NCBI GenBank assembly: GCA_009930275.1 | Contig: RZYP01000094.1 | Coordinates: 1-7,718, forward strand | Source: Negativicutes bacterium | GTDB taxonomy: Bacteria > Bacillota_C > Negativicutes > Acidaminococcales > Acidaminococcaceae | Reading direction: 5' to 3' | DNA: 7,718 nucleotides | Shown here: in pieces, positions 316-6,462 of the stretch | Position numbering within the stretch: position 1 is the stretch's first letter | How the letters are laid out: each line of letters begins with the position of its first letter | The notes under the pieces: generated by a model | What the model was told of the DNA's origin: nothing | Seen by the model: only the letters and a program-made list of their open reading frames with translations | The model's database searches: none | Translations under genes and position numbers: made by a program

Positions 316-2331
316 CTATTCAAACCAGACTTCCACTAGGGTTCCCTGACCAAGAATTGTTCCCGGCGGCAGCGACTGCTTTTTAGCTGTGCCACTGCCG
401 TGAGGTATAAGCACCAGCCTTCCCTGCTGGATCAGTTCCGCAACCTGTCTGATATTAAGTCCGGCAAAATTAGGAATTTTGGCCTTGCCATCAGGCATAA
501 TCTGCATCTGCGGCATTTGGTCAAGCTGCTTATAGTTTTCCGGCCTTTTCAAAGTATCAAGTGACGGCAAACCTATGGTAGTACTTGGCTGTATGCCCTG
601 CGCAACAAGTATTTGCTGCAAGGTATCCCTGAAAACCGGAGCTGATACCTGGGAACCGTAAAAAGCTCCCTGTGGCGAGTCTAGCATAATGAGCATAGCA
701 TACTGCGGAGAATCACTGGGGACAAAACCCACAAATGAAGCAATATAAACACCGGCAGCATAGCCGCCGTTCTCACTGAGCTTTTCCGCCGTGCCTGTTT
801 TCCCGGCTATTTTGTATCCCTGGATTCTCGCCGTTTTACCGCCGCCATCTGAAACAACCTGTTCCATCATGGAGCGCATTTGTTCGGCAACTTCTTCCGT
901 GATAACCCGCCTAACAACTTGTTTCTTCCCTTCCATCAAAACCTTGCCGTCTTGCGACACAACCTTTTGCACTATGTACGGTTTGACCAGTTCGCCGCCG
1001 TTAGCAATGGCACAGATAGCACGAAGCATTTGCAACGGCGACACCGCCACTCCCTGCCCAATGGACATAGTCGCTATATCCGGCAAACGCATCTCTTCGG
1101 GGTCATAAAGTATTCCATCCTCTTCACCCGGCAACTCAATGCCGGTTGCTTTGCCGAACCCAAATTTCTTAGTATAATCCGTCAGTTTCTGCCCTCCCAG
1201 CCTCATGCCGAGATCAGCCATCCCTGTATTAACGGAAAATTTAATAACGTCGGTAAATGTAATCGCTCCCAGAGAACCGCCATCCCAGTTTCTTATCGTG
1301 CGGTCGGCCACATTGAAGGCTCCCCCATCATAGAAGGGTGTATTGGGGCTGACCAGATTTTCACTCAAACCCGCGCAGCCAACAATTGGTTTAAAAACAG
1401 AACCTGGTTCGTAGATTATGGAAATAGCTCTATTTTTCAGAGCATCCATCGGATATTCGCTGAACTTGTTCGGATCGTAAGTTGGCCGGCTGGCCATGCC
1501 GAGTATCTCGCCAGTATTCGGATCCATCAGAATTACTGCTGCGCTTTTGGCATGGGTTTTAGCAATGGCGTCATCAAGGCCTTTTTCCAGAACATACTGC
1601 ATCTTATTGTCAATCGTCAGGTAAACAGTTGCCATTTCCGGTGGCGTAGCACTGTTAAACCCGCTTTCCGCAATCGGTCGGCCAAGAGCGTCCAAAATCT
1701 CACTTTTGCGGTTCTCCGCACCTTTGATAAGCGAGTCCAGAGCCCATTCTATACCACTCAGCCCGTTGTCATCTATGCCTACAAAGCCAAGTACATGCGC
1801 TGCCATCGTATTCTTCGTGTAATAACGTTTACTTTCCTGTAGAAAATGCAGCCCGGAAAATTTATTCTCTTTGATTATTTGCCTAACAGCATCAGCCTCG
1901 TCCGGCTCCATAGCCCTTTTGATCCATAAGAAACGTCCCTCGCTGCTGAAATCAGCAAAAAGGTCATCCGCCTTCATCTTCAGCACGGGTGCCAATAAAT
2001 CGGCTGCCAGTCGACGCGGGTCACGCTTTGGCTTCTCTCCCCGTGCCCAAAGTTCCGGGTTATCATCCATCTGCTGCGGGTCAACATACAAAGACTTGCT
2101 CATAATACTGACAGCCAGCTCTTCACCGTGGCGGTCAAGAATACTCCCGCGCGGCGAATAGACCTTCTCTTCACCGGTTGTTTGCCGAACTGAACGTCTT
2201 GCCAGCTCATTGCCGGTAATTATCTGCAGCCAGAACAAACGCAGGACAACAAGAGCAAAGGCCAATAAAATCAAAAAACCGATCACTCCGGTACGTTTCT
2301 TCCCGGAATGCAGGCTGAACTTTCTTCTCAA
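316..2331 (-). CDS. Class B penicillin-binding protein with PASTA domain (FtsI/SpoVD-like)
   Basis: This is a membrane-anchored D,D-transpeptidase that cross-links peptidoglycan outside the membrane, normally with an FtsW-type SEDS glycosyltransferase. Numbered from the GTG at 2340 (674 residues), it has a basic N-terminus, one membrane segment (about 18-40), a PBP dimerisation domain (about 60-220, with SPRGSILDRHG), and a transpeptidase domain with SVFK (Ser314 nucleophile), SVN (369-371) and KTGT (514-517). A single PASTA domain follows (about 619-674). All catalytic motifs are intact. The GTG at 2340 abuts AAGGGG (2346-2341) with no spacing, whereas the in-frame TTG at 2331 lies nine bases away and overlaps the ftsW stop codon as TTGA, so I prefer the TTG start (671 residues). 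Architecture fits SpoVD or PASTA-type FtsI; the sequence alone does not decide between division and sporulation. It is the last gene of the trmB-ftsW operon. Confidence 0.93.
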   Translation of the reverse strand: MRRKFSLHSGKKRTGVIGFLILLAFALVVLRLFWLQIITGNELARRSVRQTTGEEKVYSPRGSILDRHGEELAVSIMSKSLYVDPQQMDDNPELWARGEKPKRDPRRLAADLLAPVLKMKADDLFADFSSEGRFLWIKRAMEPDEADAVRQIIKENKFSGLHFLQESKRYYTKNTMAAHVLGFVGIDDNGLSGIEWALDSLIKGAENRKSEILDALGRPIAESGFNSATPPEMATVYLTIDNKMQYVLEKGLDDAIAKTHAKSAAVILMDPNTGEILGMASRPTYDPNKFSEYPMDALKNRAISIIYEPGSVFKPIVGCAGLSENLVSPNTPFYDGGAFNVADRTIRNWDGGSLGAITFTDVIKFSVNTGMADLGMRLGGQKLTDYTKKFGFGKATGIELPGEEDGILYDPEEMRLPDIATMSIGQGVAVSPLQMLRAICAIANGGELVKPYIVQKVVSQDGKVLMEGKKQVVRRVITEEVAEQMRSMMEQVVSDGGGKTARIQGYKIAGKTGTAEKLSENGGYAAGVYIASFVGFVPSDSPQYAMLIMLDSPQGAFYGSQVSAPVFRDTLQQILVAQGIQPSTTIGLPSLDTLKRPENYKQLDQMPQMQIMPDGKAKIPNFAGLNIRQVAELIQQGRLVLIPHGSGTAKKQSLPPGTILGQGTLVEVWFE

Positions 2332-3536
2332 CGCAGCCACCCCCTTGGTTGAGAGCGCTTGCTCGCAAGATTTTGCTTGCGTTGCTCGAAGGCCGCCGCC
2401 ACTTCCTCTTTGGCCGCATCCTGCTTGACTTCATCACGATAAACCGCAATAACGAGCCCGATAGCAATCAAATTAGCAATCAAAGCTGTACCGCCGTAGC
2501 TTATAAAAGAAAGCGGCACGCCGATAACGGGCAGAATACCGCACACCATGGCCATGTTGGCAACAGCTTGACCTACAACCAGGAAATTAACACCGGTAAC
2601 CAACAAAAAACCTCGTTCATCCCTCGTATTCAGAGCTATTTGATGAATAGCTGCTGCCAACATCAGGAAAATAATAATCAAAAGGGTCGCCCCAATAAAG
2701 CCCCACTCCTGACAAAAAATAGCAAAAGCAAAATCCGTGTGTGCTTCCGGCAGATAAAAAAACTTGCCCGTTCCCAGTCCGAAAGAAGTCCCTACAAGGC
2801 CACCGCTGCCAATTGACATCAGCGACTGCACAACCTGGTAACCTGTATTGCCGGCATCCTGCCAGGGGTCAAGCCAAATTTTGACCCTCGCCAAGCGATA
2901 GGGAGCATGAATAACAAGAAACACCGCAACAAGCAACGCAAGCCCAAGCAGGCAAACAAGCTGCCTTTTCGGCAACCCGGCAATTATATAAAGACCTATC
3001 ATGAGAGCAAAAATAATTGCCGCCGTTCCCATATCAGGCTGTAAAAAGACCAATAAGGCGAAAACACCTGCCTGAAAAAAAGCTATGTTCGCAGGGTTTT
3101 CTAACAGTGAAACTGCCTTGCCTTTGCGCAGGTACTCCCCAAGAGACCCCGCACCCAAAATTATTATCGACAGCTTGACGAACTCAGAGGGCTGGAAGCT
3201 TTGGCCGCCTATATACAGCCAGCGTTGTGCACCCTTGGTTGTTACACCGAAGGCATCAACGCAGACTAATACAATAAGGAAGAGGGCATACCAAACATGG
3301 CGAAGCCGCAGCCATAATCTATAATCAAAATACCAACCAACAATTCCCATCGCCACTAGGCCAACCGCCGCCGCCTTGGCATATGAATATAAATAATAAT
3401 AGCCATTGTCAAACATATCTCTGGCTTCAACAAAACTCGCACTAAAGACATTGATACAGCCAAGCGTCATTAGCAAAAAAGTTAAGACCAAAACGGCATC
3501 CTTTGGATTTTCCCAGATCAAAAAACGCTTGCGCAT
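2328..3536 (-). CDS. FtsW/RodA/SpoVE-family SEDS peptidoglycan glycosyltransferase
   Basis: SEDS proteins polymerise lipid II into glycan strands in partnership with a class B PBP. This 402-residue protein has about ten membrane segments and the family motifs: GAQRWLYIGGQSFQPSEF (102-119), QPDMGTA (166-172), YLPEAHTDFAF (261-271) and a C-terminal SYGGT (346-350). Asp268 in HTDF corresponds to the catalytic aspartate of E. coli FtsW (Asp297). The adjacent, overlapping class B PBP gene makes FtsW/SpoVE more likely than RodA, but I leave the symbol open. GGGGTGA sits about four bases before the ATG at 3536. It starts 19 bases after trmB and overlaps the next gene. Small oddities: GVPLSF where most family members have GVPLPF, and GGTA in place of GGSS. 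A charged cytoplasmic tail follows residue 367. Confidence 0.93.
   Translation of the reverse strand: MRKRFLIWENPKDAVLVLTFLLMTLGCINVFSASFVEARDMFDNGYYYLYSYAKAAAVGLVAMGIVGWYFDYRLWLRLRHVWYALFLIVLVCVDAFGVTTKGAQRWLYIGGQSFQPSEFVKLSIIILGAGSLGEYLRKGKAVSLLENPANIAFFQAGVFALLVFLQPDMGTAAIIFALMIGLYIIAGLPKRQLVCLLGLALLVAVFLVIHAPYRLARVKIWLDPWQDAGNTGYQVVQSLMSIGSGGLVGTSFGLGTGKFFYLPEAHTDFAFAIFCQEWGFIGATLLIIIFLMLAAAIHQIALNTRDERGFLLVTGVNFLVVGQAVANMAMVCGILPVIGVPLSFISYGGTALIANLIAIGLVIAVYRDEVKQDAAKEEVAAAFEQRKQNLASKRSQPRGWLR
2341..2346 (-). promoter_or_regulatory. Shine-Dalgarno site deciding the PBP start
   Basis: AAGGGG lies inside the 3' end of the ftsW-like gene. It is nine bases upstream of TTG 2331 and has zero spacing to GTG 2340, which favours the TTG. 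The TTG shares two bases with the ftsW stop TGA (2330-2328), the layout expected for translational coupling. Confidence 0.55.
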
Positions 3537-4478: not shown

Positions 4479-6365
4479 TTATTCTTCGTCCGTCTTGGGC
4501 GCAAGTTCATATTTCTTCAGATAACGATATAAGGTTACACGACTGACATCAAGCATGCCAGCCAGTTTGCTTATATTGCCGCCGGCTGATTTCCAAGCTG
4601 CAATAAAGGCATCTTTGTCATATTTCCAGGATTTTTCCAAAGTCCGGTCGCCAGGAAGCTTAATATTATCGGCCTCAATAATGCTGCCCGGGGTATGGAA
4701 GAAAGCTTGTTCAATAACGCCTTGCAGTTGCTTGATATTTCCTGACCAGCTGCAGCTGGTCAGAAGCTGCAGCGCTCTTGCCGACAGACGTTTGGGTGGA
4801 AGGCTGTGCTGCGCTGACATTTCCGCTAGGATATGTGACGCAATAACCTCAATATCCTTAACTCTTTCGCGCAGCGGCGGAACGCGGATAACCGTGTTGA
4901 GCACCAAGTCATACAGCTCTCTGGAGAATAGCCCTTTGTCGGCCAATCTTTTCAAATTGGAATCACAAGCCGCAATTACGCGGATGTTAAGTTTCTTTCT
5001 TATACCGGTTTCTTTATTAACAATTCCGTTCTTCAAGGCATCAGCGAGTTTGTCGCCCATTTCAACCGGCAATTTCTCTACCTCGTCCAAGAAAAGCGTA
5101 CCGCCCAATGAAAGTTCCAGTTTGCCGGCCGTAGGCTGGTTGTCGCTATCCGTAGAGCCAAAGAAATCCGCTTCCAAGTCCGCAAGCGGACCATTATAAC
5201 ATTTGACTACGATCAGCGGTGCCGCAGCACGCGGACTGGCCTGATGAATGCCGTGCGCCAGTCTTTGCTTGCCGGTACCAGGTTCGCCTTGGATCAGGAT
5301 ATTGTTATCACTGCGGGCAATACGTGACGCTTTATGCTGCAAAGCCAAAAACTCGCTGGTTTCGCCGACCATGCTGTACAAGCTGTAGCGGGAACTATAA
5401 CCTGTGGCATGTGCAATTGTTGTTTTCAAATCTTCTATTGACATGGTCAGCACTAAAGCACTTTCAACATCGCTGCCTGATTTAACCGGCAGTACCGTCG
5501 TAATGTCCTCGTAAGTGCGGTCCTGGGTTATCCATGTAATTTCCCTGCGATGCGTAGGAGAACCTTTTAAGGCCTTTTTGATAGGGATATGCTCATAATT
5601 AAGGAACACATCTTCCATTTTTTCCTTGCCTTCCAAACGGCCTGTCGCATTGTTATTACAATATTTTATTTTTTCATCCTTGCCCACCCAATAGACGGAT
5701 ACGGGCAATTCGTTCATGGTAAGCTGATAAATATTCCAGTACTCCAGCAAAGACAGATATTGTTCAATGGAATATTTCATCGTCAATAGCAGGGATAACA
5801 GCATATCATAGGGTAAATCGCTTTGGTCGAGGGAGAAAAAGGAAATAATGTAGCGGATCTTGCCATTAACAAAAACCGGCGCGCTGCAAGCATCTCCTGA
5901 ATGGCTGTCCTTAATCCACATTTCCGGTCCGAACATTAAAAACGGTACCTTATGCTCTCTTGCGACGCTGATACTTGAAGTACCCACGTCTTCTTCCAAG
6001 ACACGCATCCCTTGAATATCTTCAATAACTCTTTGAAAAAATGGCAGGGCATAATTCTTGATTACGTAACCTTCCTCATCAATCAAAAGCATGCTCAGAT
6101 TGTGGACATTGAAATGCTGCTTGTTCTGCTCATACAAACCGTCTACATATCTTACGATAAATTCATGCGCTTTTTGGTGCTCAACAATTTCTTCTTTGCT
6201 CAGCTTATTAAGCTTTGGCATTGTTTCATGGGGTAAATTTATGGCAGCACAACGTTGCCATGATTCAGCCACCCATGGATGAACATTAGGGTCAACAATG
6301 CCTTCCTCCATGAATTTCTTGTAGTATGACGCAAGCTTTTCTTTATTTCTTCTCTCACGAATCAT
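4479..6365 (-). CDS. AcoR/DhaR-type regulator (GAF-PAS-AAA+-Fis HTH) with degenerate AAA+ domain
   Basis: This 628-residue cytoplasmic DNA-binding regulator has the layout of the acetoin/dihydroxyacetone regulator group. An N-terminal SWQRC segment (35-39) and a GAF-like sensor (about 80-180, GTSSISVAREHKVPF) come first, then a PAS-like region (about 215-310). Next are an AAA+ domain (about 330-560) and a Fis-type HTH (about 586-618, GGNISKLAGMLDVSRVTLYR). Walker A (GEPGTGK, 360-366) and Walker B (GGTLFLDE, 421-428) are present. The sigma-54 contact motif GAFTGA is absent: DFFG leads through a loop four residues shorter (STDSDNQPTA) to GKLE. The two arginine fingers (PspF R162, R168) align with Ser481 and Leu487, and sensor II Arg with Lys545. 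It probably acts at sigma-A promoters or as a repressor, as TyrR and DhaR do. GAGGAGGG precedes the ATG by nine bases. The effector and targets are unknown. Confidence 0.88.
   Translation of the reverse strand: MIRERRNKEKLASYYKKFMEEGIVDPNVHPWVAESWQRCAAINLPHETMPKLNKLSKEEIVEHQKAHEFIVRYVDGLYEQNKQHFNVHNLSMLLIDEEGYVIKNYALPFFQRVIEDIQGMRVLEEDVGTSSISVAREHKVPFLMFGPEMWIKDSHSGDACSAPVFVNGKIRYIISFFSLDQSDLPYDMLLSLLLTMKYSIEQYLSLLEYWNIYQLTMNELPVSVYWVGKDEKIKYCNNNATGRLEGKEKMEDVFLNYEHIPIKKALKGSPTHRREITWITQDRTYEDITTVLPVKSGSDVESALVLTMSIEDLKTTIAHATGYSSRYSLYSMVGETSEFLALQHKASRIARSDNNILIQGEPGTGKQRLAHGIHQASPRAAAPLIVVKCYNGPLADLEADFFGSTDSDNQPTAGKLELSLGGTLFLDEVEKLPVEMGDKLADALKNGIVNKETGIRKKLNIRVIAACDSNLKRLADKGLFSRELYDLVLNTVIRVPPLRERVKDIEVIASHILAEMSAQHSLPPKRLSARALQLLTSCSWSGNIKQLQGVIEQAFFHTPGSIIEADNIKLPGDRTLEKSWKYDKDAFIAAWKSAGGNISKLAGMLDVSRVTLYRYLKKYELAPKTDEE
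4742..4763. repeat. Perfect 22-base palindrome inside the regulator gene
   Basis: CTGACCAGCTG is followed at once by its exact reverse complement, giving an uninterrupted 11+11 dyad. It encodes the region around residues 534-541, just before the sensor II motif SGNIKQL. A further GCTGCAGC occurs three bases later. It could be an internal operator, an mRNA hairpin, or a chance product of codon choice. Confidence 0.6.
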
Positions 6366-6462
6366 TCAACAATACCCTCCTCATTCAAAATCAAAATAAT
6401 CATCACTGTTGACGTGTAATATTCGACACAATTTCTGTAAATCCTACAAAGAAAACTGGGGA

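Follow-up and report, generated by a model that had tools for sequence, protein, structure and literature searches.

Relatives of the bacterial enhancer-binding proteins (EBPs) that lack the GAFTGA loop are already known as a kind (PMC3162934). That paper and PMC10274813 describe TyrR, HupR, R. capsulatus NtrC, Caulobacter NtrC, VpsR and YplP as having this loop deleted and as acting, or believed to act, independently of sigma-54; DhaR is given as sigma-70 dependent (PMC3162934), and R. capsulatus NtrC as relying on ATP binding, not hydrolysis (PMC10274813). Here we describe a regulator gene of this general type on a 7,718-nucleotide stretch (the window) of a Negativicutes genome (GCA_009930275.1, contig RZYP01000094.1). 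The gene is a single 628-amino-acid open frame spanning 4479-6365 on the minus strand, and by its domain matches the product is a DNA-binding regulator with the GAF-PAS-AAA+-Fis helix-turn-helix (HTH) layout of E. coli DhaR. We consider it probable (roughly three chances in four) that this is a sigma-54-independent regulator which would bind ATP without productive ring hydrolysis: the ATP pocket is strictly kept while the residues for ring hydrolysis are gone, which suggests that ATP serves as a signal and not as a fuel.

An ATP pocket kept without GAFTGA loop or arginine fingers

We aligned the window protein with PspF, NtrC, TyrR and DhaR of E. coli MG1655 and, in a second alignment of 83 members, with its own relatives: 63 loci from a genome scan and 20 distant members hand-picked among the listed N-terminal profile matches in a class sample (both described below), minus one copy with an altered C-terminus. 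The original prediction had read in this protein retained Walker motifs, a shorter and unrelated loop in place of GAFTGA, Ser and Leu at the two arginine-finger positions, Lys for the sensor II Arg and Cys-Asp for the usual Thr-Asn of sensor I, and each of these readings recurs in the alignments. Walker A (GEPGTGKQ) and Walker B (LFLDE) are present. Residues A84-G87 of the PspF GAFTGA (83-88) fall opposite a gap, and G83 and A88 opposite Ser and Asp, the window loop being unrelated and four residues shorter. Displacement of GAFTGA to elsewhere in the protein was rejected, as G[AS]F[TS]GA is absent from the ungapped sequences of 83/83 members, and likewise from the omitted copy as aligned. Sequencing error or a pseudogene was also rejected, since the residue states are common to 83 members.

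Conservation within the subfamily is uneven. Invariant positions number 81 of 628 and include Gly360, Lys366, Gln367, Arg368, Asp427, Glu428, Asp468 and Lys545. Conservation averages 0.97 for the P-loop, 0.94 for the sensor II stretch and 0.93 for Walker B; it is 0.72 for the AAA+ core and 0.36 for loop 1, and reaches 0.96 across residues 606-618, the HTH recognition helix. At the position of PspF Asn64, which we take to be the glutamate-switch residue, 79/83 members have K or R; Asn persists in two (L210, L211), which have the lowest N-terminal scores among the 20 added members. The earlier view that the protein had lost its sigma-54 and ATPase machinery thus stands in part: the sigma-54 loop and the fingers are lost, but only half of the ATPase machinery has gone, because no member departs from the Walker A Lys or from either Walker B acid. 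Two copies deviate at the C-terminus: that of Succiniclasticum ruminis DSM 9236 (L038, 8001-9868; the copy omitted above) shifts frame there, through an error or a true mutation, to give 606 amino acids with an altered tail and an unread HTH, and L208 departs from its fellow members in an unalignable HTH, perhaps through a frame change.

What the protein shares with sigma-54-dependent EBPs is Walker A, Walker B and an AAA+ core of EBP-type fold; what it lacks is the GAFTGA loop, both arginine fingers and, in 31 of 50 carrier genomes, a match to sigma-54 in the same genome. It resembles the GAFTGA-less, sigma-70-type relatives in having lost loop 1 from a protein that is otherwise built like an EBP. 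E. coli DhaR is like it in domain order, in lacking GAFTGA, in a Ser at the first finger (FSR.LY) and in a second finger that is not Arg. TyrR differs, retaining Arg in our alignment at both finger positions and at sensor II; the likeness to HupR, R. capsulatus NtrC, Caulobacter NtrC, VpsR and YplP is drawn from the published descriptions cited above.

Extent of the subfamily and its relation to sigma-54

The genome scan searched with two peptide patterns of the N-terminal half, so that a relative is reached only where it has kept at least one of the two. Of the 64 loci obtained, 63 hold full-length relatives (46-96% identity over the best segment) and one an unrelated EBP (L067). Most of the records are titled Phascolarctobacterium, Acidaminococcaceae, Acidaminococcus, Succiniclasticum, Selenomonadales, Sporomusa, Sporomusaceae, Pelosinus or Mitsuokella, the remainder being some unnamed metagenome-assembled genomes (MAGs) of Bacillota and Negativicutes and three Acholeplasmataceae. 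The copies in these last three (L005, L024, L064) are 79-96% identical to that of the window and have similar neighbours, and the titles look wrong.

A tree built from 50 AAA+ domains puts the 21 rows of the subfamily on one side of a 100/99 branch, found in 100% of 200 bootstrap trees; the traits described above thus mark a single stable subfamily. Among EBP frames that passed a motif filter in carrier genomes (loci L071-L088 and L162-L191), the six subfamily members all lack GAFTGA, whereas the 26 others carry GAFTGA (22), GSFTGA (2), GAFSGA (1) or SSFTGA (1). In a sample of 380 genomes from the class of P. faecium the N-terminal profile matched 219, of which 200 were strong (E below 1e-60, a threshold of our own) and 19 weak. 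A sample of 398 genomes from the phylum gave 119 matches at E 0.001 or better, only 10 of them above 380 bits, with the next at 73 bits; all 10 also belong to the class sample. As far as a limited literature search shows, a subfamily of this kind, confined to the class and combining a frozen pocket with the loss of the fingers, is new.

The absence of an rpoN match in 31/50 carrier genomes includes three named strains, and also the three genomes whose copies are 90-96% identical to that of the window (G001, G002, G047). In the class sample rpoN matched strongly in 121 of the 200 strong carriers, weakly in 5 and not at all in 74; of the genomes in which the regulator has no strong match, 36 have rpoN and 144 lack it as well. 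Certain sources label the protein sigma-54-dependent, even in a lineage without a sigma-54 match. With no loop, no fingers and no rpoN match in so many carriers, that label is probably wrong, as had been suspected.

PF00158 exceeds its cut-off in 14/14 control genomes and is not by itself specific for EBPs, so we judged EBPs by match strength (usual strength being E below 1e-60); counting a GAFTGA DNA pattern proved unreliable and was dropped. EBP domains of usual strength track rpoN, occurring in 19/19 genomes with it and 1/31 without, whereas the regulator itself does not. In nine rpoN-less genomes inspected, the regulator scores 105-116 bits against PF00158 and everything else 35.4 bits or less; it is the only real EBP-type match there. 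Two genomes are unusual: G035 has an EBP at 3e-70 though no rpoN match, which looks like an assembly fault, and one contig (C175) of a Phascolarctobacterium MAG (G016) carries rpoN and a strong EBP together, unlike its relatives, possibly through an assembly fault, contamination or transfer.

Gene map, promoter and neighbourhood

The features of the gene are collected in the table. Its GAF-PAS half has a predicted fold matching that of the N-terminal part of DhaR, DhaR(N), in agreement with the sensory role foreseen for it.

Features of the regulator gene in the window; residue counts refer to the alignment of 83 members
Feature	Position	Strand	Evidence
Predicted SigH-type promoter, GTAGGATTT-N11-GTCGAATAT	6419..6447	-	first base 82 nt upstream of ATG
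Ribosome-binding site GAGGAGGG, ATG 9 nt further on	6375..6382	-	read from sequence
Regulator gene (GAF-PAS-AAA+-Fis HTH, no GAFTGA)	4479..6365	-	open frame, domain matches, alignment, predicted fold
GAF domain, residues about 65-207	5745..6173	-	
PAS domain, residues about 208-310	5436..5744	-	
AAA+ domain including lid, residues 333-568	4662..5369	-	
Walker A GEPGTGKQ, residues 360-367	5265..5288	-	Lys366, Gln367 83/83
Lys388 (PspF Asn64)	5202..5204	-	K 51, R 28, H 2, N 2
Shortened loop 1 at GAFTGA site, residues about 404-413	5127..5156	-	mean column conservation 0.36
Walker B TLFLDE, residues 423-428	5082..5099	-	Asp427, Glu428 83/83
Sensor I Cys467-Asp468 (PspF Thr148-Asn149)	4962..4967	-	C 78, S 4, T 1; D 83/83
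Ser481, first arginine-finger position (PspF Arg162)	4923..4925	-	S 65, others 18, Arg 0
Leu487, second arginine-finger position (PspF Arg168)	4905..4907	-	L 40, I 23, others, Arg 0
Lys545, sensor II (PspF Arg227)	4731..4733	-	K 83/83
Fis-type HTH, residues 584-620, recognition helix VSRVTLYRYLKK	4506..4616	-	PF02954, 30.9 bits

Transcription of the gene in the window probably starts at the SigH-type promoter, taking the SigH consensus to be that of B. subtilis. An identical strict site with the same 11-nt spacer lies at -79 and -73 in two close relatives (L005, L064) and at -76 in a distant one (L050). Strict sites occur within 200 nt in 4/64 upstream regions (Markov control mean 0.01, maximum 1), and sites with at most one mismatch in 5/64 (control mean 0.41, maximum 3); most relatives have no SigH-type site within those 200 nt. 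Over both strands of 63 loci (1,902,838 bases) there are 12 strict sites, three of them at the regulator gene. The SigH profile matches all 25 of 25 chosen genomes, 20 over the cut-off and five below it at 169-293 bits, and SigH-type sigma factors are present in rpoN-less hosts.

No conserved target gene adjoining the regulator was seen in the flanks of the loci compared. Downstream, trmB lies within three same-strand open reading frames in 33/60 loci and, upstream, an nlpC-type gene in 35/58; both counts may be too low, as the frame caller picks antisense frames in some loci. After trmB the window carries FtsW/RodA-type and SpoVD/FtsI-type genes (316-3536, minus strand), both scoring below the NCBI curated cut-offs for their best families. 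In the left flank of several loci (L007, L017, L036, L042, L064 and others) there are divergent upstream genes which we take to belong to an Rnf complex, an rnfC-like cluster (9) recurring in 12 loci. Several 5-base dyads upstream of neighbouring genes exceeded Markov controls; as related genomes have homologous flanks, a fact to which such controls are blind, we claim no operator from these dyads.

Relation to DhaR and the role of ATP

Could the regulator simply be a DhaR orthologue, governing dihydroxyacetone metabolism via DhaK/DhaL? DhaR (NF008485) is its top NCBIfam match (residues 25-624, 242.3 bits, the runner-up at 168), the predicted N-terminal folds are alike, and DhaR stands beside the subfamily in the AAA+ tree at a split of 92/79. 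The score, however, is far short of the curated DhaR cut-off of 551, and DhaK was found in just 20/50 carrier genomes, the other 30 including the three with the nearest copies. Scored with a full-length subfamily profile, 14/26 GAFTGA-type relatives outscore DhaR (the highest at 292.6 bits, DhaR at 211.2), and with the AAA+ part DhaR ranks last of 30; moreover, Walker B is broken in DhaR (LEKI) but intact in the window protein. Score and DhaK absence thus make orthology very improbable, though the tree leans towards it. Because GAFTGA-type relatives outscore DhaR, we infer that the subfamily descended independently from a GAFTGA-type activator and converged on the DhaR state; the tree weighs against this, but the great length of the DhaR branch (2.42) makes its placement doubtful. 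The top five of the 30 full-length scores (257-293 bits) belong to GAFTGA-bearing activators of the carrier genomes (e.g. L169, L171, L177), presumably of AcoR type, which differ in retaining the loop motif and are set apart from the subfamily at 100/99.

As to the pocket, it is unlikely that ATP is still hydrolysed, whether slowly in cis or with a different residue acting in trans, to drive a sigma-54-free step. Such a step would account for a Walker B Asp-Glu pair and a basic glutamate-switch position so widely kept, and has a precedent in Caulobacter NtrC, which according to PMC10274813 lacks GAFTGA yet depends on the residues of both Walker motifs; against it, neither finger position has Arg in any of the 83 members, and the sensor I and sensor II residues are replaced. 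We find it less likely still that the AAA+ domain is a dead scaffold to which nucleotide is irrelevant. Fingers, sensors and sigma-54 loop are all lost, as that would have it, and VpsR is reportedly ATP-independent (PMC10274813); yet P-loop, sensor II and Walker B are conserved far above the AAA+ core, while loop 1 has drifted.

Several observations weigh against an ATP-binding, non-hydrolysing and sigma-54-independent regulator. The invariance of Glu428 may point to some remaining hydrolysis, and the Caulobacter NtrC case implies that loss of GAFTGA is no proof of loss of hydrolysis. The full-length structure model has a predicted template modelling score (pTM) of 0.47. Sigma-54 is present in 19/50 carrier genomes, that of Sporomusa ovata (G050) among them, and most rpoN-less carriers other than the named strains are MAGs, which may be incomplete. 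Nor is the subfamily universal in the class, with no strong match in 180/380 genomes, 36 of them having rpoN; and the 5-base dyad search found neither operator nor regulon.

We nevertheless favour ATP binding without productive ring hydrolysis, and wherever it could be computed the original interpretation is supported. ATP as a ligand would fit the invariant pocket. An effector or partner protein might engage the GAF/PAS half; ATP or ADP in the AAA+ pocket would govern the oligomer state in the role of a ligand, allosteric or structural, no productive ring hydrolysis taking place; and the HTH would bind operators, activating or repressing by direct contact with sigma-A (or SigH) RNA polymerase, so that direct control at sigma-A promoters may be expected. 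The closest reported mechanism is that of R. capsulatus NtrC. We put forward only tentatively, as a doubtful picture, that this is a regulator restricted to its class (by its members, presumably the Negativicutes), that its hydrolysis-dead AAA+ domain reads cellular ATP/ADP together with an effector input through GAF-PAS, that it acts on sigma-A or SigH promoters, and that it persisted when sigma-54 was lost, the sole EBP-type protein to survive in such genomes.

The subfamily offers a natural series, with rpoN kept or lost and GAFTGA-bearing relatives in the same cell, in which the role of an EBP AAA+ domain after the loss of sigma-54 may be followed; and since the ATP pocket is frozen while the finger positions vary freely, the choice between binding and hydrolysis can be put to a direct test.
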